Positions 6,923-16,882 of a stretch of 17,014 nt of DNA are shown piece by piece. Position 1 is the stretch's first letter. Every line of letters begins with the position of its first letter. A program made the translations under genes and the position numbers. Origin of the DNA: Thermoplasmata archaeon (GTDB lineage: Archaea; Thermoplasmatota; Thermoplasmata; Lutacidiplasmatales; UBA184); the NCBI GenBank assembly GCA_030043405.1, contig JASHXS010000057.1, positions 1 through 17,014 of the forward strand, written 5' to 3'. The notes under the pieces were generated by a model, which saw only the letters and a list, made by a program, of their open reading frames with translations, had not been told where the DNA came from and made no database searches.

Positions 6923-7981
6923 CTAGAACCGCCGGTCGGCCGCGCCGCGTGCCAGCTGCTCCAGCAACTGTCGGTAGGGCCCGGTCGGGAGCGGTTCCAG
7001 GCATCGGACCGCCCGGTCGGCCCAATCCGAGGCTTCCCGGGCCACGACCTGGGGCGCGTCCGTCATCTGGGTGAGGTCGCGCAGCCGGAGGAGGTGCTTG
7101 GCTCGCTTCCGCCGCAACTGGAAGAGGCGCTCGAACTCCGCCTGGTAGCGGGGCGCGAGCCGCGCATACGCCTCGATGGAGAGGAGGGTCGGATTCCCTT
7201 CGCGCAGGTCCCCGTAGAGCGGCTTCCCGAGCAGGTCCGGGTCGCCGTAGAGGTCGAGGAGGTCGTCGCGGATCTGGAAGGCCATGCCGAGGGCGCGCCC
7301 GTATCCCTGGAGCGCGTCGACGTGGGCCGGCGGGGCGTTCGCGATCTCCGCGACCGACGTGAGCGCCGCCGCGATGATCGCCGCGGTCTTCCGCTCGATG
7401 ACGCGGAAGTAATGGGACCGTCCGCTCGAGAGGTCGAACCGAGAAGCTTCCTGGAGCACCTCGCCCTCGACCAGGTCGGCGCACGACTCGCCGCACCGCA
7501 TGATGATGGCCCGCGGATACTCGGCCGCGAGTTCGAAGGCCCGCACGAACAGGTAATCTCCGGAGACGATCGCGAGGGGGATCCCGAACGCCCGGGGCAT
7601 CGAAGGGCGACCGCGGCGGGTCTCCGCGTGGTCGATGACGTCGTCGTGCACCAGCGTCGCGGTGTGGATGAGCTGGAACGCCGCGGCGAGCGACTGGATC
7701 GGCTGGGTCGAGGTCGCCCCGAGCGCGCGATGGGCCGAGGCCATGAGGAGGGGCCGGACCCGTTTGCCGCCGGTGGAGCAGGCGTACCGCGCCGCTTCGG
7801 TGAGCTGTGCGTACGTCGAGCCCAGGACCTCCGCGACGCGCCAGTCGATGTCCGCCAGGTCGCGTACCAACACCGGCGCGACCTCCGCCAGGGGGCCGAC
7901 CAGCCGGTCGCCAAAGGTCTGGACCACGAGGGTCTCGAGGGACGGGTCGCTCGCTTCCGAGACCTGCGGGGGTACGGTCAC
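6923..7981 (-). CDS. trans-Polyprenyl diphosphate synthase (long-chain type motif; GGPP synthase possible)
   Basis: This enzyme adds isopentenyl diphosphate units to an allylic primer to make a linear isoprenoid chain. The 352 residues carry GGKRVRPLL (71-79), the first aspartate-rich motif D113-D-V-I-D117 with TRRGRPS after it, and the second, D239-D-L-L-D243, followed by GDPDLLGKPLYGDLREGNPT. The segment before the first motif reads QLIHTATLVHDD, with Ala at -5 and Thr at -4. By family rules a small residue there allows long products, and IHTATL resembles octaprenyl and heptaprenyl synthases more than archaeal C15/C20 enzymes. The GTG start overlaps the reductase stop as GTGA, with GGGGAGG 5 nt upstream. 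The product may therefore be a quinone tail or a C20+ lipid precursor; length is not certain from sequence. Confidence 0.92.
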   Translation of the reverse strand: MTVPPQVSEASDPSLETLVVQTFGDRLVGPLAEVAPVLVRDLADIDWRVAEVLGSTYAQLTEAARYACSTGGKRVRPLLMASAHRALGATSTQPIQSLAAAFQLIHTATLVHDDVIDHAETRRGRPSMPRAFGIPLAIVSGDYLFVRAFELAAEYPRAIIMRCGESCADLVEGEVLQEASRFDLSSGRSHYFRVIERKTAAIIAAALTSVAEIANAPPAHVDALQGYGRALGMAFQIRDDLLDLYGDPDLLGKPLYGDLREGNPTLLSIEAYARLAPRYQAEFERLFQLRRKRAKHLLRLRDLTQMTDAPQVVAREASDWADRAVRCLEPLPTGPYRQLLEQLARGAADRRF

Positions 7982-9078
7982 GAGTTCCTCCCCACGCGCG
8001 CCGGCCACCGGAGCCGCATCATCGAGTCGAGACCCCGGCTCCCGATATAGCGCATTCCCAGGGCGAGGAGGGGATCGTAGGCGGCATACCGCTCGCCCCA
8101 CGCCAGGATCCGCGCGGCCCGCTCGAGCGGCTCGTACAGCGACGCCTTCCAATTTGTATCGTACGCGGCGAGCGGGACGTCCCGTCGCACGTGCTCGGCG
8201 GCCGACTGGCCGGCCAGCCAGCCGCTCATCATGGCGGTGGGGATCCCGCCGCCATTGGTCGCCATCACGAGGTTGGCCGCGTCCCCGCAGAGCAGGGAGG
8301 TCCCGTGGACGAGGGTAGAGGGCGGGGGACCGATGGGCACCCACCAGCGGGTCGGGTCGTGCGCCCGACCGAAGCCGCGATGGGCCAGGAACCGGTCCAG
8401 GAGGCCGGCGAGCGTGGCGCCCGGCGGTAACTGCGCCACCCCGAGCCCGACGTTCAGGTCGTCGGCGCGCGGGAAGGCCCACGCGTATCCGCCGGGGGCG
8501 TCGCGTCCGAAGTAGAGGTCGATCTCGTCCTCGAGCGGCTGGTCGACGCTCGCCGTGATCATCCGGAACAGGGTGCGGGAGGGAGCGACCCCCGCCGCGC
8601 GGGCGACCGTGGAGAGCGGGCCATCGGCGCCGATGACGACTTTCGCCTGGACCCGCGCCCCGCCGACCAGTTGCACCTCCCCGTCGCCCACGCCCGTGAC
8701 GCCGACCGGGAAGCGGAGTTCGGCACCGGCCCCTTCGGCCCGGTAGGCGAGTGCCTTGTCGAAGGCGCGCCGCGACACGGTCGCGCCGGCCAGGGGGAAG
8801 CGGAATCGGTGCCCGTAGGGCGAGACGCACGCCATCCAGCGGGTCTCGCGCAAGACGGTCGAAGGGGGGATCTCGAACGCGCGGGCGATCAGCTCGGGGG
8901 TGTCAAAGAGGTCCCGCAATTCGGCGGGAGACGGAACGAACTCTCCACACTGTACGGGGTGGCCGAGTTCGGGCCGATGGTCGACCAGGAGGGTACGCGC
9001 TCCGCCCTCCGCGGCGGCCCGGGCCGCCAGCGACCCCGCCGGACCGGCCCCGACCACGACGACGTCGAAGCGCTCCAT
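7978..9078 (-). CDS. Geranylgeranyl reductase family FAD-dependent oxidoreductase
   Basis: This flavoprotein family saturates isoprenoid double bonds in archaeal phospholipids, menaquinone tails or chlorophyll side chains. The 366 residues begin MERFDVVVVGAGPAGSLA, a dinucleotide-binding fold with G10, G12 and G15. They continue with PVQCGEFV (C44, a conserved family cysteine), VVIGADGPLSTVAR, the reductase signature P195-G-G-Y-A-W-A-F-P203, and LLCGDAANLVMATNGGGIPTAM for FAD binding (261-282). The ATG at 9078 starts 4 nt after the nuoN stop, and the gene overlaps the next one by 4 nt, so it is an integral part of the complex I operon. That context favours a quinone-tail substrate (MenJ-like), while archaeal digeranylgeranylglycerophospholipid reductase remains possible. 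The family call is firm and the substrate is not. Confidence 0.92.
   Translation of the reverse strand: MERFDVVVVGAGPAGSLAARAAAEGGARTLLVDHRPELGHPVQCGEFVPSPAELRDLFDTPELIARAFEIPPSTVLRETRWMACVSPYGHRFRFPLAGATVSRRAFDKALAYRAEGAGAELRFPVGVTGVGDGEVQLVGGARVQAKVVIGADGPLSTVARAAGVAPSRTLFRMITASVDQPLEDEIDLYFGRDAPGGYAWAFPRADDLNVGLGVAQLPPGATLAGLLDRFLAHRGFGRAHDPTRWWVPIGPPPSTLVHGTSLLCGDAANLVMATNGGGIPTAMMSGWLAGQSAAEHVRRDVPLAAYDTNWKASLYEPLERAARILAWGERYAAYDPLLALGMRYIGSRGLDSMMRLRWPARVGRNS
7987..7993 (-). promoter_or_regulatory. Shine-Dalgarno of the polyprenyl synthase inside the reductase gene
   Basis: The minus strand reads GGGGAGG, then 5 nt, then the GTG at 7981 in a GTGA overlap with the reductase TGA. It fixes the start and implies stop-start coupling. 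Confidence 0.65.
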
Positions 9079-9082
9079 CGGC

Positions 9083-10675
9083 TCATACTCCGGCCGAAAC
9101 GAAGTGCTGGGCGGCCATCTGGATCGCCCCGACGACCGGTTGGGGGTAGAGGCCGACGCCCACGATGAGGACGGCTGCGAGCCCGATCGCCACGGCTCTC
9201 CCGTAGCCGAGGCCGCCGGCACCCAACGCGGGCGCCGACGCCGCGGCCGCCGTCCCCTCCGCCGTCTCGAGGGGACCCGGGCGGTCGAAGTACATGACCT
9301 TCAGGACCCGGGCGTAGTAGAACACGCTCAGGGCGCTGTTCAGGAGGCCGGCCACGGCGAGCCAGATGAACCACCCCTCGGCCTGGACCGCCGCCGAGAA
9401 CAGGATGAACTTCGAGACGAATCCGACGGTGAGTGGCACCCCGGCGAGGGAGAGTAGCATGAGCGCGAAGGCGGCCCCGGTGAGCGGCCGACGCACCCCG
9501 AACCCCTTCCAATCGTCGATGAGCGGTCCGATGCCGAGGGCGCCGACCCCGGCCACCACCAGGAACGCGCCGCCTTTCATCAGTACGTGGGCGAAGATCT
9601 GCAGGGTGGCGCCCGTGAGCGCCGGTGCGGTGCCGATGGTGATGCCGATCAGCATGTACCCGGCCTGACTGATCGAGGAGTAGGCGAGCATCCGCTTCAT
9701 CTCCTTCTGGAGAAGAGCCAGGACGTTGCCGACGGTCATCGTCACCACGGCGAGCACCCCGAGGGTGATCGACAGCGTCGGGCCGAGGTCGACCGCGCCG
9801 CCCCCGAACGGCGATTGACCGGCCGCCGCGGTGTTCACGAGAAGGACCGGGCCCAGGAAGACCAGGAAGAAGGCGAACAGGCCGATCTTCTTGGTACCGC
9901 CGGCGAGGAAGGCGCTCACGTCGCTCGGCGCGCCGTCGTAGACGTCGACCGCCCACGCGTGGAACGGCACGAGGGTGACCTTGAACGCGAGCCCCGCGAC
10001 CAGGAACCCGTACCCGAGCAGCACGAGGACGGGGAATCCGACGGTGGAGGCGTCCGCCTGGATCAGGAAGAGGTTCGTCGTGCCGTACGCCCCGAACAGC
10101 AGGGAGGCCCCGTAGAACGAGAGGACCGTGGAGAGGGCGCCGATGATGAAGAACTTCATCGCCGCCTCCATCGACCGGGTCTCCCGCCGCCGGTATCCGA
10201 CCAGCAGGTACGAGGGGATGCTCACGACCTCGATCGCCAGCAGGAGGAAGATCAGGTCGGACGCGACGGCGACGAGGAGCATCCCGAGCGTGGCGAGCAG
10301 GAGGAGGCCGTAGAAGATCGGGGCTCCCGGCTCGTCCGAGGGGCGGCTCGCGGAGGCGAGGGTCACGAGCAGGGCGGAGAGCAGGAAGATCGCCTGGAAG
10401 ACGAGCCCGAGCGACGTGAAGTGGTAGAGCGGGGCCGAACCGAACGCCGGAAGGGTGTCGATCTGGCCCGGGGAGAGGGTCGCCAGCACCGAGAGGGGTC
10501 CGAATCCGAGGTCCCCCAGCACCGAGAGGAGGGCCAGGACGACCGCGGTCACCGCCACGGTGCTGAGCCACTCGTTCCGCCGGAGGCCGAGGACGTCCAA
10601 GAGGAAGATCAGGAGCGTCCCGCCCAGCAGCAGGATCTCCGGTACGAAGGGGCCGACGAAGGAGGTGAAATCCAT
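9083..10675 (-). CDS. nuoN: NADH-quinone oxidoreductase-type complex I, subunit N
   Basis: This is an antiporter-like proton-pumping subunit of the membrane arm. It has 530 residues with about 14 hydrophobic helices. Key family residues are present: a glutamate in LLLAIEVVSIPSYLLVGYR (E149), the lysine of GLAFKVTLVPFHAW (K232), lysines in GGTKKIGLFAF (K262/K263), and YSSISQAGYMLIG. The V-P-F-H-A-W-A-V-D-V-Y-x-G-A-P block is typical of NuoN rather than NuoL or NuoM. The linker just before the last helix is Ala/Gly-rich (about 480-500). The ATG at 10675 follows the nuoM stop by 4 nt. It is followed directly by the reductase gene, so this is the last complex I subunit of the operon but not the last gene. 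Confidence 0.97.
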   Translation of the reverse strand: MDFTSFVGPFVPEILLLGGTLLIFLLDVLGLRRNEWLSTVAVTAVVLALLSVLGDLGFGPLSVLATLSPGQIDTLPAFGSAPLYHFTSLGLVFQAIFLLSALLVTLASASRPSDEPGAPIFYGLLLLATLGMLLVAVASDLIFLLLAIEVVSIPSYLLVGYRRRETRSMEAAMKFFIIGALSTVLSFYGASLLFGAYGTTNLFLIQADASTVGFPVLVLLGYGFLVAGLAFKVTLVPFHAWAVDVYDGAPSDVSAFLAGGTKKIGLFAFFLVFLGPVLLVNTAAAGQSPFGGGAVDLGPTLSITLGVLAVVTMTVGNVLALLQKEMKRMLAYSSISQAGYMLIGITIGTAPALTGATLQIFAHVLMKGGAFLVVAGVGALGIGPLIDDWKGFGVRRPLTGAAFALMLLSLAGVPLTVGFVSKFILFSAAVQAEGWFIWLAVAGLLNSALSVFYYARVLKVMYFDRPGPLETAEGTAAAASAPALGAGGLGYGRAVAIGLAAVLIVGVGLYPQPVVGAIQMAAQHFVSAGV

Positions 10676-10679
10676 GGTC

Positions 10680-12152
10680 TCACAACCCCGCGAAGCCGCG
10701 GATCGGCGAGTTCGTGATCAGGTTCACGAGCAGGAACGGCAGCACGCCGAAGAGGATCGCGGCGCCGGCCAGAATGCCCATCCCCGCGGTCTCGTACCAC
10801 GGTAGGTCGTGCGCGGTGGGGGGCACGCCCTTCGGGGGACCGAAGAGCATCCGCTGCATCATCCAGATGTAGAACGCCGCGGTGACGACCAGGATCCCCA
10901 GCGGGATCAGCACCCAGTACGCGAGGCCATCCCAGGTGGCGAGCAGTGCCGTGAACTCCGCCGGGAAGCTGATGAGCCACGGCAGGCCCAGCGAGGCGAG
11001 CGACCCGACCATGACCATGGTCGAGAGCGTCGGGGTGGTCGGCGTGATCCCTCCGATCGACGCGATGTCGCGGGTGCCGTACGTGTGGTGGACGCTCCCG
11101 GCGGTCATGAACAGGAGCGCGCTCACGACCCCGTGGGCGAACATCAGCAGCACGGCGGCCAACAGGCCGAGCGAGGAACCGAGGGCGATCGCGAGGAGCA
11201 CGATGCCCATGTGGTTGATCGAGGAGAACGCCACGAGGCGTTTCAGGTCCCGTTGCGCCAGCGAGACGATGGAGCCCCAAGCGATCGACGCGAAGGCGAT
11301 CACGAAGAGGATGGGCTGGACCTCGTGGAAGCCGAGCGGGAGCACGAAGACCGCCCAGCGGATGAGTCCGTAGCCGCCGAGCTTCAGGAGGAGGCCGGCC
11401 AGGAGCACCGAACCTCCCGTCGGGGCCTCGACGTGGGCGTCCGGTAACCAGGTGTGGAACGGCACGACCGGGAACTTGACGCCGAATCCGAAGAACAGCG
11501 AGAGGAACAGGAACGCCTGCGTGGCGACCCCCAGCGTCGGAGCCGCCGCGAAGACGCTCGAATAGTCGAAGCTGGTCGCCCCCGAATAGAAGACGAGGGC
11601 CAGCAGGCCCACCAGCATGACGATGGAGGCGACGTGGGTGTAGACGAAGAATTTGATCGCGGCGTATCGGCGTCGGGGACCGCCCCAGTAGCCGATGATG
11701 AAGAACATGGGGACCAGGACGGCCTCCCAGAAGAGGAAGAACAGTAGGACGTCCAGCGCGACGAACACCCCGACGCACCCGAGGCACGTGAGGAGGAGCA
11801 GCCCGAACCAGGCCGCCGGCTTCTTCTGCTCCTCCCACGAGTACACGACCGTCGCGATCTGGAGGATCGCGGTCAGGAAGATCAGGACGAGCGAGATCCC
11901 GTCGATACCGACCGTGTAGTTGACCTGCAGCCAGCCGAGGTGGATCCACGCGTACGACTCGCTGTCCGCGAACTGCGGGACTCCCCCCGCGAGGCCCGGC
12001 CAGCCGGGGAAGTACATCAGCAGGTAACCGACCTCGGCGAGGAACGCGAACGAGACGAGCAGCGCGGTCCATCGGGCGTATTTCCCGGACAGGAACGTCA
12101 GGACGGTCCCGACGAGGAGGGTCGCCAGCAGCGTGGAGAGGACCGGGAACAT
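10680..12152 (-). CDS. nuoM: Complex I membrane subunit M
   Basis: This is the second antiporter-like subunit, with 490 residues and about 14 helices. Signature residues match E. coli NuoM with a constant offset of about eight. E143 in LFFLFWEAVLVPMFF corresponds to E144. K226 in FGVKFPVVPFHTWLPDAH corresponds to K234, and K257 in LLLKLGGYG corresponds to K265. The HTWLPDAHVEAPT block and FSSINHMGIVLLAIA are typical of proton-pumping Mrp-like subunits. The C-terminus is short and polar. The ATG at 12152 lies 1 nt after the TAG of nuoL, and the stop is 4 nt before nuoN, showing tight operon packing. No functional residue appears to be missing. Confidence 0.97.
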   Translation of the reverse strand: MFPVLSTLLATLLVGTVLTFLSGKYARWTALLVSFAFLAEVGYLLMYFPGWPGLAGGVPQFADSESYAWIHLGWLQVNYTVGIDGISLVLIFLTAILQIATVVYSWEEQKKPAAWFGLLLLTCLGCVGVFVALDVLLFFLFWEAVLVPMFFIIGYWGGPRRRYAAIKFFVYTHVASIVMLVGLLALVFYSGATSFDYSSVFAAAPTLGVATQAFLFLSLFFGFGVKFPVVPFHTWLPDAHVEAPTGGSVLLAGLLLKLGGYGLIRWAVFVLPLGFHEVQPILFVIAFASIAWGSIVSLAQRDLKRLVAFSSINHMGIVLLAIALGSSLGLLAAVLLMFAHGVVSALLFMTAGSVHHTYGTRDIASIGGITPTTPTLSTMVMVGSLASLGLPWLISFPAEFTALLATWDGLAYWVLIPLGILVVTAAFYIWMMQRMLFGPPKGVPPTAHDLPWYETAGMGILAGAAILFGVLPFLLVNLITNSPIRGFAGL

Positions 12153-12153
12153 C

Positions 12154-14082
12154 CTAGGTCCCTCCGAAGTGGGCGAGCAGGTACGGCGCGACGAGCAGCA
12201 GGAGGGCGAAGACGCCGACCAGCCCGGCGATCACGTAGGCTGCGTAATCGGAGACGACCCCGGATTGCATCGCCCGGAGGCGGTCGGAGAGCGAGCCGAA
12301 GATCCGCTCGAAGCCGTGAACGGTCCCGTCGATGACATAGCGGTCGACGAAGTCTGCGCCCCGGGAGATCCCGTAGACGGCCCGGAGCCCGATCCAGTCG
12401 TAGGCGACCTTCATGTAATACCGGTTCAGGAGGAGTCGCCGGACCGACTGCCACGGGCTGTCCGCCGGCAGCACGTAGACTCGGCCGTTCCCCCACAGCT
12501 GGTAGGCGAGGCCGATCCCCGCCAGACCGAGCCCGACGCTCACTCCCGACAGGAGCAGGTCGGTCGAGCCATACACCGGCGGGATCCCGGCCACCCCGTC
12601 CCCGTGGAGCAGGAGCCCCTGGAAGTTGGGGAGGAAGATGAACAGCCCGGCGATGAGGGCCATTCCCGAGAGGATCACGAGGGGGACCTGCATCACCCAG
12701 GGACCCTCGTGCGCGTGGGGCAGCGACGGGTCCCGGGGGTGGTCGCCGGAGAACGCGAGGAACCACGCCCGGAAGATGTAGTAGGCGGTCAGGAACACCG
12801 CCGCGAAGGCGAGGAGGAAGAAGGGCCAGTACAGCGGGTGGCTCCCGAGCTGCGAGTACACTGCCGAGAGGATGTCATCCTTCGACCAGAAACCGGCGAA
12901 CGGAGGGATGCCGGCGAGGGCCAGCCCCCCGATCGCGAACGCGGCCGCGGTGACCCGCATCGGCTTGCGGAGCCCGCCCATCTTGAACAGGTCCTGCGTC
13001 CCGACGGCGTGGATCACCGAGCCGGCGGCCAGGAACAGGAGGGCTTTGAAGAACGCATGGGTGAACAGATGGAAGAGACCGACCATGGCAAAGCCGGCTC
13101 CGACGGCCATGACCATGTACCCGAGCTGGCTGATCGTGGAGTAGGCGATCACCCGTTTGATATCCGGATGGACGACCGCCATCGTGGCGGCGAAGAAGGC
13201 CGTGAACCCCCCGATGGCGACGATCGCCAGCTGATCGGTGGACGTGAACCCGATGAAGACGCTCGTGACGGCGAGCAGGTAGACGCCCGCCGCCACCATC
13301 GTCGCGGCATGGATGAGGGCGGACACCGTCGTCGGACCCTCCATCGCGTCCGGCAACCAGACGTGGAGCGGGAACTGGGCGCTCTTGCCGGCCGCCCCGC
13401 CCAGGATCAATAGACCGGCGATCGTGAGGAGCGTCGAGCTCCCGATCGCCCCGGCGGGGAGGAACGGCGTGGTCCCGTTCGTGAAGACGAAACCGTTGGC
13501 GGCCCAGCCCCCGTTCGGGCCGGTGGTCGCGTAGTGGAAGAAATAGATGAAGATCCCAAGCAGGAACAGCACGTCGCCCACCCGGGTGACGAGGAAGGCC
13601 TCCTTCGCCGCACTGGCGGCGCTCGGCTTCTCGTAGTAGAACCCGATGAGGAAGTACGAACAAACTCCCACCAGCTCCCAGAAGAGGAAGAACTCCAGGA
13701 GATTGTTCGACAGGACCAGCCCCGTCATCGCGGCCAGGAAGAGCGAGAGCTCCGCGTAGTAGCGCGGGAGTCCCCGGTCGTGGTGCATGTACCCGATCGA
13801 GTACAGCATGACCAGGAAACCGACGACCGTGACGACGAGGAGCATCAGCGCCGAGAGCGGGTCCACGAGGGTGCCCGCGACGAGGGAGAGCCCGTTGGGG
13901 AACGGACCGGGGGAGGCCGCGAGGTGGAGCCAGGTGTACTGAGCGTTGACGTAGGCGCCCGGATTCAGCATCTCCCCGATGGCGATCGTGACCCCCAGCG
14001 CCATCGCGGCGCCTGCGAAGCCGACCGCCAGCCACCCGCCCCACTCGAGCTTCTGGAGCCGGGTGCCGAACAGGCCGACCAA
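12154..14082 (-). CDS. nuoL: Complex I membrane subunit L (start codon uncertain; probably begins further upstream)
   Basis: This is the distal antiporter-like subunit, with its C-terminal lateral helix. The conserved blocks are LEFFLFWELVGVCSYFLIG (E136 from the listed start), VTRVGDVLFLLG, AQFPLHVWLPDAMEGPT, ALIHAATMVAAG, and AYSTISQLGYMVMAVG. The last ~130 residues supply the long amphipathic helix and final membrane segment. The coordinate given is the first canonical codon, a TTG at 14080-14082, but it cuts the first helix. Upstream in the same frame, 24 sense codons encode TTTAFTTLDDWAFLIPLF and SVIAFA, a good first helix for NuoL, with no ATG, GTG or TTG before the in-frame nuoK TAG at 14164-14166. 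Candidates are the ACG triplets at 14146-14154 or the CTG at 14113-14115. Confidence 0.93.
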   Translation of the reverse strand: MVGLFGTRLQKLEWGGWLAVGFAGAAMALGVTIAIGEMLNPGAYVNAQYTWLHLAASPGPFPNGLSLVAGTLVDPLSALMLLVVTVVGFLVMLYSIGYMHHDRGLPRYYAELSLFLAAMTGLVLSNNLLEFFLFWELVGVCSYFLIGFYYEKPSAASAAKEAFLVTRVGDVLFLLGIFIYFFHYATTGPNGGWAANGFVFTNGTTPFLPAGAIGSSTLLTIAGLLILGGAAGKSAQFPLHVWLPDAMEGPTTVSALIHAATMVAAGVYLLAVTSVFIGFTSTDQLAIVAIGGFTAFFAATMAVVHPDIKRVIAYSTISQLGYMVMAVGAGFAMVGLFHLFTHAFFKALLFLAAGSVIHAVGTQDLFKMGGLRKPMRVTAAAFAIGGLALAGIPPFAGFWSKDDILSAVYSQLGSHPLYWPFFLLAFAAVFLTAYYIFRAWFLAFSGDHPRDPSLPHAHEGPWVMQVPLVILSGMALIAGLFIFLPNFQGLLLHGDGVAGIPPVYGSTDLLLSGVSVGLGLAGIGLAYQLWGNGRVYVLPADSPWQSVRRLLLNRYYMKVAYDWIGLRAVYGISRGADFVDRYVIDGTVHGFERIFGSLSDRLRAMQSGVVSDYAAYVIAGLVGVFALLLLVAPYLLAHFGGT

Positions 14083-14163: not shown

Positions 14164-14481
14164 CTATTCCTTCAGCTCGTTGGCCTGGGCGACGTTGATC
14201 GACCCCTTCAGGCGATTCAGGCCCAGGACGATGGCGAGGCCCACCGCGACCTCGGTCGCGGCGAACCCGATCAGCACGACGGCGATCGCCTGGCCGGAGA
14301 GGCCCGTCCCGGACGTGGCGAACGCCGCGAAGTAGACGAAGTTCAGGATCGTCGCGTTCATCGCGATCTCGACGGCGATCAGGATGAGGATGAAGTTGCG
14401 CCGGGTCAGCAGACCGAAGATGCCCACGGCGAGCAGGGCGCCCGAGAGCGCCAGGAACCAGGCGACGGGCAGCGCGGTCAC
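14164..14481 (-). CDS. nuoK: Complex I membrane subunit K
   Basis: This is a small membrane-arm subunit of 105 residues with three hydrophobic helices. Two conserved membrane glutamates needed for proton transfer are present: E38 in LIAVEIAMNA and E77 in GFAATEVAVGLA (E36 and E72 in E. coli). The TRRNFILIL loop and LNRLKGS near the end are typical. It starts at a GTG that overlaps the nuoJ TGA as GTGA (14478-14481). It ends in TAG, after which the same frame continues open into nuoL. Length is normal, so this is not a fragment of a fusion. Confidence 0.96.
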   Translation of the reverse strand: MTALPVAWFLALSGALLAVGIFGLLTRRNFILILIAVEIAMNATILNFVYFAAFATSGTGLSGQAIAVVLIGFAATEVAVGLAIVLGLNRLKGSINVAQANELKE

Positions 14482-14966
14482 TCGCGACCCTCCCGCACGA
14501 GGTAGATCGCGCCGGCCACGCCGCTCATCATGATCAGCCCGAGCAGCAGCAGCCAGGGGCCGTAGTTCCCGAACAGCGCTCCCGAGAGCGCGGTCGGGTC
14601 GTACGACTGGACCGTCAGGGTCCCCTGCGGGAACTCCCCGAGCGAAGCGACCAGGAAGATGAACGTCACCGCCGCGAGGGCGAGCGGCACCGGCCCGATC
14701 CCGGTCGCGGCGTCGCGGGAGAAGATCCGCTTCCTCGTTACCATGATGCCGAACAACAGGAGGACGGTGACGGCGCCGGCGTAGACGCCGAGCTGGAGCA
14801 CGCCGAGGAAGGGCGCATTGAGGAGGAAGTAGATGGCGGAGAGGTCGACAAAGAACACGGCGACCCAGAGGATGGTGTGGACCAGCTCGCGGACGAGGAG
14901 AGCGGCGACCGACGTCCCCACGGCCACCGCCGCGAGCGCGAGGAACGCGAGTTCCTCGAGGTTCAC
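14478..14966 (-). CDS. nuoJ: Complex I membrane subunit J
   Basis: This membrane-arm subunit has 162 residues and about five hydrophobic helices. The third helix contains LGVYAGAVTVLLLFGIMV, the region of the π-bulge that links quinone reduction to proton movement in solved complexes. The FLLNAPFLGVLQ segment before it is also typical. It is a single full-length gene, unlike the split J subunits of some Fpo-type complexes. The GTG start overlaps the nuoI TGA as GTGA at 14963-14966, and its own TGA overlaps the nuoK GTG in the same way, so three genes in a row are joined by stop-start overlaps. Confidence 0.96.
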   Translation of the reverse strand: MNLEELAFLALAAVAVGTSVAALLVRELVHTILWVAVFFVDLSAIYFLLNAPFLGVLQLGVYAGAVTVLLLFGIMVTRKRIFSRDAATGIGPVPLALAAVTFIFLVASLGEFPQGTLTVQSYDPTALSGALFGNYGPWLLLLGLIMMSGVAGAIYLVREGRE

Positions 14967-15742
14967 TTCCTATTCCCCCAGAAGAGACACTCCTTCGGAC
15001 AGACGCTGATGCACGTGCCGCACCGGACGCAGTCGGAGTCGTTGATCACCGGCTCCTTCCAGATGCGCTTCGGCGCCTTCTCGCCGGGCTTCAGCTCCGG
15101 CTTCGGTACGTCGAGCATCGTGATGCACTGCGTGGGGCAGTCGCGCGCGCACGCGTTGCAACCGATGCACAACGGCGGTTCCAACAGGATCTGGTCCTCG
15201 TTCGCCGGGCGCTCGACCCGGATCGGGTTCATCGGCAGCTTCTGCTGGTAGACCTGGTACAGCCGCTCGGGCGAGTAGACCATGTCGGCCCGCTTGTGGG
15301 TCGAGAGCTCGTAGCGGGTCGTCATCGTGAGGCACCCTTCGGGGCACGCGTCCGAGCAGAACCCGCAGTAGCTGCACTTTCCGTAGTCGATCTCCGGACA
15401 CTTCTTCGGGTGCTTCGGGTCGCCGCCCGGCACCGTGACCATCTCGATGCAGAGATCCGGGCAGGAGAATGCGCACAGGTTGCACGAGATGCAGGTCGCG
15501 ATGTTCAGCGCATGGACCCCGCGGTAGTTGTCCCAGATCGGTCCGACCCCGATCGGCTTCCCCGACTCGACGCCGACCTCGGTACGGAACTTGGGGTCCT
15601 CGAGGCGCTCGAAGGGGTAGACCACGGTCGACGGGCGGACCAGGCTCCGGGCGAACTGCCGGGCGGCCGTGACCATCGGCTTCGCCACCCACAGGATCGG
15701 GTTGTCGGAGGGTTTCTCGGTCGCCGTCACCTCGTCCGCCAT
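14963..15742 (-). CDS. nuoI: Complex I iron-sulfur subunit I with an extra two-cluster ferredoxin domain
   Basis: NuoI normally carries two [4Fe-4S] clusters that pass electrons to NuoB. This 259-residue protein has the usual core: the N-terminal helix region, VVYPFERLEDPKFR, RGVHALNIATC, and motifs C84-x2-C87-x2-C90-x3-C94-P and C123-x2-C126-x2-C129-x3-C133-P. After a linker (about 140-185) come two more complete motifs, C192-C195-C198-C202-P and C238-C241-C244-C248-P, giving four predicted clusters in all. A further cysteine follows each CP by three residues (C98, C137, C206, C252). Canonical NuoI is about 130-180 residues, so the C-terminal ~75 residues are an added ferredoxin-like module. 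With nuoE, F and G absent from the operon, this module may help accept electrons, perhaps from ferredoxin. The ATG at 15742 lies 9 nt after the nuoH stop. Confidence 0.95.
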   Translation of the reverse strand: MADEVTATEKPSDNPILWVAKPMVTAARQFARSLVRPSTVVYPFERLEDPKFRTEVGVESGKPIGVGPIWDNYRGVHALNIATCISCNLCAFSCPDLCIEMVTVPGGDPKHPKKCPEIDYGKCSYCGFCSDACPEGCLTMTTRYELSTHKRADMVYSPERLYQVYQQKLPMNPIRVERPANEDQILLEPPLCIGCNACARDCPTQCITMLDVPKPELKPGEKAPKRIWKEPVINDSDCVRCGTCISVCPKECLFWGNRK

Positions 15743-15751
15743 GTGTTCTGC

Positions 15752-16882
15752 TCACACCCCCGGAGAGGGCAGGCAGCCGAACACGGGCAGGCACTTCACG
15801 GTCACGAGGGCCGCTGCGAGGAAGACGGAGGCGAGGCTGAGGGGGATCATCCGGTTCCAGCCGACGCGCAGCAACTGGTCCGTCCGCACCCGCGGGAGCG
15901 AGGCCCGGATCCAGACGAAGAGCCCGAAGACGAGGTAGGTCTTCACCATGAACCAGAAGATCCCCGCGAGCGGGAAGGACGTCGCGGCGGACGGCACCCA
16001 CGAGGGCATCGTCCAGCCGCCCAGGAACAGCAGGACGACCAGGATGCTCCCGACGAGCGCCCGGAGGTAGTCGGCGAGCATGAAGAAGGCGAACAGCATG
16101 CCCCCGTACTCGGTGTTCCATCCCTCGACCAGCTCCGCCTCGGCTTCGGGCAGGTCGAAGGGGATCCGCTCCATCTCGGCGAGCATGCCGGCCACGAAGA
16201 CGATCAGCGCGAGGAACAGCGGCGCCCAGAACCAGTAGTTCTGTTGCTCCATCACGATGACGTTCAGGTTGAAGCTGCCCGAGACGACCACGACCGCGAC
16301 GACCGCGAGGAGGAGCGGGACCTCGTAGGCGATCATCTGGGCGGCCGAGCGCATCCCGCCCATCAGGGAGTACTTGTTGTTGCTCGACCAGGCGCTGACG
16401 AAGATGAACAGCGGGGCGAACGAGAAGACCGCGAGCGCGAGCAGGAGGCTGAGCGGGAGCACCCCGGAGTTCCAGCCGGAGGAGATGGGGAGGATGCCGA
16501 AGATGATCATGGACGTCACCATGTACGCCGTCGGGCCGCCGTAGAACCCGAGGGTGTCCGCCTCCTTCGGCTTGAACGTGTTCTTGCGGAACAGCTTGAG
16601 CCCGTCCGCGAAGTTCTGGAGCAGCCCGGCGTAGCCGACGTGCATGGCCCCGCGCCGGTCCATGAACCGGCCGAGGAGCTTGCGTTCCCACCAGATCAGC
16701 ACGATCGTGTTGATCATGCTCGCGGCGAGCAGGATGGCGCCGAAGACGAGGACCGAGAGGCCCAGGATCAGGTCGCTGTTGGTAATCCAGGCACTGAGCG
16801 GGTACGGAAGGACCGAGCCGAGCGCGGTCAGGAGGGTGTTGACCAGGAAGTACGAGACGCTGTAGAGGGTCGCGCTCGACAT
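15752..16882 (-). CDS. nuoH: Complex I membrane subunit H
   Basis: This membrane subunit forms the quinone-binding chamber together with NuoD and NuoB. It has 376 residues and about eight or nine helices. Signatures are WWERKLLGRFMDRRG (65-78), VGYAGLLQNFADGLKLF (82-98), SLMGGMRSAAQMIAYEVPL (172-190), and ERIPFDLPEAEAELVEG (238-254), with the acidic cluster of the proton-entry E-channel. Several prolines of the first cytoplasmic loop seen in bacterial NuoH (R-x-G-P, V-G-P, L-L-Q-P) are replaced here by Ala, Tyr and Asn. The C-terminus ends in a short tail with two cysteines (KCLPVFGC). The ATG at 16882 follows the nuoD TAA by 6 nt containing GGACC. Confidence 0.97.
   Translation of the reverse strand: MSSATLYSVSYFLVNTLLTALGSVLPYPLSAWITNSDLILGLSVLVFGAILLAASMINTIVLIWWERKLLGRFMDRRGAMHVGYAGLLQNFADGLKLFRKNTFKPKEADTLGFYGGPTAYMVTSMIIFGILPISSGWNSGVLPLSLLLALAVFSFAPLFIFVSAWSSNNKYSLMGGMRSAAQMIAYEVPLLLAVVAVVVVSGSFNLNVIVMEQQNYWFWAPLFLALIVFVAGMLAEMERIPFDLPEAEAELVEGWNTEYGGMLFAFFMLADYLRALVGSILVVLLFLGGWTMPSWVPSAATSFPLAGIFWFMVKTYLVFGLFVWIRASLPRVRTDQLLRVGWNRMIPLSLASVFLAAALVTVKCLPVFGCLPSPGV

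Follow-up and report, generated by a model that had tools for sequence, protein, structure and literature searches.

The window analysed here, i.e. the whole stretch of 17,014 nucleotides, is an entire contig (JASHXS010000057.1) from a fragmented, 56% complete assembly of a Thermoplasmata archaeon (GCA_030043405.1). It carries genes of a complex I (nuo) operon on the minus strand, among them a nuoI gene for a subunit with four motifs of the type CxxCxxCxxxCPxxC. These begin at residues 84 (CISCNLCAFSCPDLC), 123 (CSYCGFCSDACPEGC), 192 (CIGCNACARDCPTQC) and 238 (CVRCGTCISVCPKEC) of the protein, which contains 21 cysteines in total. By comparison, 20,000 shuffles of its letters gave a mean of 0.007 and a maximum of 2 CxxCxxCxxxC motifs. 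A preliminary description of this DNA, in which no strand was given for the gene, had reported two canonical motifs followed by a second complete pair, an extra cysteine after every CP, an undisturbed frame and a GTGA coupling to nuoJ. All sequence points that were checked proved correct: four motifs are counted at the positions given, each reads CPxxC, the translation of 259 amino acids is free of internal stops, and the GTGA can be read at the nuoI/nuoJ overlap (Table 1).

Judged by its sequence, the N-terminal half of the protein is an ordinary NuoI. The protein matches the NuoI model TIGR01971 with 121.8 bits (cut-off 113.05), its gene lies between nuoH and nuoJ in the nuo operon of the window as in that of the relative L018, the NuoI fold is present, and the motifs at residues 84 and 123 are those for clusters N6a and N6b. 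The first motif pair, the place in the operon and the fold are shared with the standard proteins NuoI, NDUFS8 and NdhI, whereas the second pair is additional: the NCBIfam NuoI model comprises 121 positions with one pair, to which the window protein adds a second ferredoxin module. As the window ends 132 bases past nuoH, nuoABC lie outside it; in L018, nuoA, nuoB, nuoC and nuoD were found upstream, with N2-type cysteines in nuoB as read by eye.

Table 1. Features of the window, with the coordinates, strand and basis of each assignment.
Feature	Coordinates	Strand	Basis
nuoI, 259 aa, four CxxCxxCxxxCPxxC motifs	14963..15742	-	Open reading frame translation, motif count, family models
Predicted N-terminal helix, residues 15-35	15638..15700	-	AlphaFold2; predicted local distance difference test (pLDDT) 69, 83 and 64 in blocks 11-20, 21-30 and 31-40
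Motif 1, residues 84-98 (with motif 2, N6a/N6b pair of NuoI)	15449..15493	-	NuoI model match at residues 70-161
Motif 2, residues 123-137	15332..15376	-	Motif scan
C-terminal 2[4Fe-4S] ferredoxin module, residues 178-259 (82 residues)	14966..15211	-	Fer4_7 at 192-251; nearest solved chains; NCBIfam models
Motif 3, residues 192-206, extra pair	15125..15169	-	Motif scan
Motif 4, residues 238-252, extra pair	14987..15031	-	Motif scan
nuoH	15752..16882	-	PF00146, 8.5e-99
nuoJ, GTGA overlap with nuoI	14478..14966	-	PF00499; sequence by eye
nuoK	14164..14481	-	PF00420
nuoL (start as listed by the open reading frame tool)	12154..14082	-	PF00361 and PF00662
nuoM	10680..12152	-	PF00361
nuoN	9083..10675	-	PF00361
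Geranylgeranyl reductase family protein, 3' of nuoN (start chosen by analyst)	7978..9078	-	TIGR02032, 196 bits (cut-off 158.8); synteny
Polyprenyl diphosphate synthase (start chosen by analyst)	6923..7981	-	PF00348; synteny

The close relatives of the window are metagenome-assembled genomes of Thermoplasmata, including 'Candidatus Lutacidiplasma silvani' and UBA184, which puts the window in the order known as Lutacidiplasmatales (PMC9287336). Within this order, all four strict motifs together with all four extra cysteines are present in 68 of 73 loci (L001-L073, with the window included and some records present twice). Four of the remaining loci end at contig edges. The fifth, L057 of UBA184, has a broken frame, here a nuoI frame at 9140-11245 with three motifs only that extends past the usual end. 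For 57 sequences, limited to those with four motifs and a full set of extra cysteines, the median ratio of nonsynonymous to synonymous substitution rates was 0.147 for the N-terminal module (1198 pairs) and 0.117 for the C-terminal module (1535 pairs); estimated in this way, purifying selection on the C-terminal module is as strong as on the N-terminal one. The earlier proposal of a real fusion or domain addition is supported by this selection, by the many separate assemblies in which the architecture is kept and by the position of multi-motif NuoI on one side of a single tree branch (see below). Motif counts in homologues likewise show the second pair kept in the 68 loci of relatives and across many families.

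Our deliberate searches covered the phylum Thermoplasmatota, and multi-motif NuoI may occur elsewhere as well. NuoI-family matches were obtained in 187 of 200 genomes of the class and in 11 of 14 control genomes, and motifs were tabulated at 60 match places, chosen to cover the families, and at 30 further loci. In complex I context, four motifs (in some cases three of them strict) occur in f1 (the window's family), f8, f11, f16, f20, f22, f29 and f30. The count is five in f21, five or six in f5 and three in f4, where L126 has a very long branch. Family f3 is counted with the four-motif kind on account of P0026, a full-length relative with three strict and four loose motifs that ends identically to the contig-edge copy L082. 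A two-motif copy from f16 (L140) ends at a contig edge. All seven loci of f23, f25, f26 and f28 have a four-motif NuoI beside NuoB. Here the nuo operon is split (L149-L153, L156, L158), with nuoB directly 5' of nuoI, and the matches for NuoD and NuoH share a different contig in six of the seven genomes. Orphan nuoB-nuoI pairs without a complex I were rejected for these families, as NuoH and NuoD match elsewhere in all seven genomes.

A search of the phylum at 1e-25 matched 65 of 147 genomes, many over the N-terminal half only, and added two families outside the class, f34 and f46, both with four motifs (between H and J in f34, beside H in f46). Five relatives with two motifs (P0023-P0025) or one motif (P0027-P0028) are partial or mis-framed according to alignment and length, and P0029 is a protein of 198 aa with two motifs and 35% identity. 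With a 16-row profile, 237 proteins were found in a protein database at 1e-30; the 120 of them that were listed are all four-motif, 118 with four strict motifs. Their source names include Methanomethylophilaceae, Methanoplasma, Methanomassiliicoccales, Methanomassiliicoccaceae and, once, Thermoplasmatales. Because of these names and the shared motif spacing of 38/83/39, f8 and its neighbours would correspond to Methanomassiliicoccales. A restriction of the architecture to one odd lineage was rejected, since multi-motif NuoI is found in many Thermoplasmatota families including methanogens. In annotation, a NuoI length of about 230-330 aa combined with four or more motifs could serve as a marker to tell the two kinds of complex I in the phylum apart.

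A profile of f5 and f21 retrieved 96 proteins at 1e-40, with five or six motifs in 92 of the 95 new ones. In the five- or six-motif NuoI of these families (f5: L091, L127, L128, L130-L134; f21: L129, L143) the further ferredoxin unit sits between the N-terminal and C-terminal pairs, and in the aligned rows the fourth cysteine of the last motif is followed by K or R, not P. Two-motif NuoI-like proteins outside the H-I-J-K order or near hydrogenase-like genes occur in f6, f7, f13 and f15, and second, two-motif NuoI-like copies in f3 (L083), f5 (L135) and f25 (L154, L155). The copy at L083 (9246-9797, genome G026) has no nuoH-N match within 18 kb; the complex I end of the same genome, at L082, is of the four-motif kind.

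Two trees were calculated from NuoH and the N-terminal domain of NuoI, in which f1 is represented by relatives of the window and not by the window itself. In the first (LG+G4), with the columns of the extra module excluded and L126 retained, one branch with support 100/99 separates 47 multi-motif from 17 two-motif rows. In the second, under a mixture model, the same split was obtained (42 and 12 rows, support 100/99) after the addition of four rows, f34 and f46 among them, and the omission of L126 and, for thinning, of L107, L141 and eleven rows of f5, f8 and f19. The extra module was probably gained once, as far as these alignments indicate. Since both trees drew a long-branch warning from the tool and have one bacterial row as sole outgroup, a single gain is the simplest reading and not proof, and a loss of the module in two-motif families is possible. 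The window protein has four motifs and its f1 relatives fall with the multi-motif rows, which places it in the group, defined here, of Thermoplasmatota complex I with a multi-motif I subunit.

The candidate electron sources differ strongly in their occurrence. The FpoF-type family PF04432 had no match in at least 20 sampled f1 genomes and matched 10 of 121 genomes of the class overall (three in f25, two each in f23 and f8, one each in f9, f20 and f30); an entry of F420H2 in f1 was rejected on this ground. NuoF (PF10589) matched 25 of the 121 genomes (eight each in f9 and f19, four in f15, two in f13, one each in f1, f18 and f25), which leaves one match in at least 21 sampled f1 genomes, and an NADH module encoded elsewhere in f1 genomes was rejected as well. 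The preliminary description had spoken of a complex I without nuoEFG. This stands in f1 as regards NuoF, the only one of the three that was searched in relatives; the module is not among the window genes examined, in a genome of 56% completeness. POR_N, a family of 2-oxoacid:ferredoxin oxidoreductases, is present in 56 of 57 f1 genomes and is common elsewhere (10 of 14 controls). From the presence of POR_N, the near-absence of NuoF and the lack of an FpoF match, f1 can probably make reduced ferredoxin, and its complex I mostly seems to be without the usual heads.

We regard it as fairly probable, though by some distance not certain, that the second motif pair of the window protein is a C-terminally fused ferredoxin extension which passes electrons from reduced ferredoxin to N6a in a headless, 11-subunit complex I. 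That the module acts as an electron entry site or as a docking relay for ferredoxin, as first suggested from the motifs, is plausible. The N-terminal half would carry the standard N6a and N6b clusters leading to N2 in NuoB. The C-terminal half, most likely cytoplasmic and at the place where NuoG or FpoF would dock, would accept single electrons from ferredoxin that 2-oxoacid:ferredoxin oxidoreductases have reduced. Electrons could then run from ferredoxin through the C-terminal module to N6a, N6b, N2 and a membrane carrier, and the membrane arm would pump ions as this carrier is reduced. The motifs, their conservation and operon context, the distribution of NuoF, FpoF and POR families and the one-branch split are observations; we infer the assembly of the clusters, the position of the module, the direction of electron flow and ferredoxin as the donor.

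Several points weigh against this ferredoxin-entry reading. The f1 genome G066 has a NuoF match, and two-motif NuoI occurs in complex I context in f19, f27 and f31. In the AlphaFold2 model of the window protein (predicted template modelling score 0.65), pLDDT falls to 53 in block 171-180 between the modules and below 50 at residues 38-49 and 55-73. The predicted relative placement of the two halves is uncertain, and the C-terminal module folded alone reached a pLDDT of only 61.7. The FpoI of Methanothrix is presumably of the short kind. Ferredoxin has been proposed as the donor of the Methanothrix Fpo without FpoF (PMC4153887), and Thermoplasmatales-type archaea of acid mine drainage, one excepted, were reported without NuoEFG (PMC3750248). 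For the headless Fpo of Methanomassiliicoccus, said to oxidise ferredoxin and to hand the electrons to HdrD (PMC7374477), the scheme for M. luminyensis is partly marked as unverified in a 2018 review (PMC6019823). Judged by the Methanothrix Fpo and by the two-motif complex I of Thermoplasmatales-type archaea reported without NuoEFG, an extra module is not needed for the use of ferredoxin as such. The benefit of the module may then lie in affinity, speed or reach, and the reaction would be possible in its absence.

The polyferredoxins MvhB and FwdF/FmdF wire enzymes together. They bring up the strongest competitor, a minor yet serious one: the C-terminal module could be a docking wire for a specific enzyme, such as a 2-oxoacid oxidoreductase, a hydrogenase/HdrABC assembly or another dehydrogenase, instead of a receiver of free ferredoxin. 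Among solved chains, MvhB and FwdF/FmdF from large methanogen assemblies (PDB 9sw6, 7bkb) are indeed nearest to the module; like the window protein they have tandem 2[4Fe-4S] modules, but as separate proteins of other enzymes. A longer wire would also suit the five to six motifs of the f5 and f21 proteins. However, the best NCBIfam model for the module is NuoI (2.8e-14; 53 bits, below the cut-off of 260) and not FwdF (1e-6; 45.8 bits for the whole window protein, cut-off 375). As to the source of the module, solved chains favour MvhB/FwdF and profiles favour NuoI's own pair. Against the docking wire, moreover, no dehydrogenase gene was seen adjoining the nuo genes of the window or of L018, the other flanks not having been systematically annotated, and the module is common to lineages of very different metabolism.

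HdrD is known as an enzyme of methanogens. The C-terminal module might also let electrons leave complex I, or branch off from it, towards another soluble acceptor, for example HdrD. This would agree with the proposal that the Fpo-like complex of Methanomassiliicoccales gives electrons to this protein (PMC7374477, PMC6019823). It is improbable as a shared role, because HdrD is known from methanogens and because complex IV, adjoining complex III genes, was reported for 19 of 22 genomes of higher completeness in the window's order, Lutacidiplasmatales (PMC9287336). Marginally less probable still is that the extra pair serves for structure or as a redox buffer, outside the electron path. Such an addition would fit the two-motif NuoI that works in other families and the low confidence predicted for the stretch between the modules; the ligand cysteines, however, are conserved in all intact copies, and purifying selection on the protein is strong. 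An assembly chimera or a frameshift fusion with an adjacent ferredoxin gene, for which the fragmented and incomplete assembly might speak, is practically ruled out by the identical architecture of homologues in many separate assemblies, single-contig genomes of f8 among them.

The closest known counterpart of the fused ferredoxin extension is the Fpo-like headless complex of Methanomassiliicoccales, whose FpoI-type proteins have the same four motifs. It is described as lacking FpoF and FpoO (PMC4153887, PMC5011839), which resembles the window's complex with no FpoF match in f1. The listed proteins of this type are 26-34% identical to the window NuoI; their spacing between motifs 3 and 4 is mostly 39, compared with 46 in the window, and 113 of the 120 have one CPxxC, compared with four. 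The Methanosarcina-type FpoI and the headless Fpo of Methanothrix belong to an archaeal relative of complex I fed by F420H2 or, as proposed for Methanothrix, by ferredoxin (PMC4153887). The NCBIfam FpoI model has 135 positions, and the window protein scores 79.6 with it, below the cut-off of 180. Photosynthetic NDH-1 is a headless complex I that takes electrons from ferredoxin, and the entry 6l7o (Fd-NDH-1L) is among the Foldseek matches of the whole window NuoI model, whose alignments of more than 110 columns mostly have root-mean-square deviations of 7-26. To our knowledge, it has no fused ferredoxin module. Instead, extra subunits receive the ferredoxin (PMC11238625). For complex I without the NADH module, the same paper proposes ferredoxins as shuttles and NuoI as the first redox subunit, extra motifs being unmentioned in its accessible sections.

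At this point it should be noted that no description of a NuoI or FpoI with extra clusters was found in the literature; key subscription papers were outside our reach, so that the architecture is not established as undescribed. In their accessible parts, the genome papers on Methanomassiliicoccales mention FpoI, or the absence of the Fe-S subunits FpoF and FpoO, with no remark on extra motifs (PMC4153887, PMC5011839). In the accessible text of a survey of archaeal fusions, those listed for this complex are BC and BCD alone (PMC11237513).

We consider it an evenly balanced question whether most Thermoplasmatota with complex I form a distinct class whose I subunit has turned into an integral polyferredoxin (four to six [4Fe-4S] clusters), the module having been gained once before the lineages split and replacing NuoEFG or FpoF as electron entry. 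If so, aerobic soil acidophiles and methanogens would share one ferredoxin-driven entry wire. How electrons enter headless complex I is open in most archaea. A fused ferredoxin module kept over many families of the phylum, including methanogens, provides a concrete candidate entry site. It also suggests that complex I has had its electron input remodelled through ferredoxin modules joined to NuoI, which in some lineages has five or six motifs.

The extra cysteine of CPxxC accompanies all four motifs in f1 alone. Elsewhere, the families examined carry it at no motif or at up to three, with three in f23, f25, f26, f28 and f34. Motif 1 has it in 9 of 17 f8 loci and throughout the rows tabulated for the remaining multi-motif families. 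Because a free cysteine lies beside a cluster in Azotobacter ferredoxin I, a tuning or protective role is possible by analogy.

The flank downstream of nuoN was compared for the window, L018, L030, L041, L061, L067, L085 and L091, plus L074-L076 and L086. A polyprenyl synthase and a geranylgeranyl reductase gene lie 3' of nuoN in the five f1 loci examined and in the f8 locus L085, where their order differs from that in f1, and the f5 locus L091 has a polyprenyl synthase at its edge. These genes are possibly linked to the membrane electron carrier. Neither of them was found in the short available flanks of L074-L076 (f20 type) and L086 (f11). In L074-L076, two NuoM-like genes stand in a row between nuoL and nuoN, and this arrangement suggests an extra antiporter-like subunit.
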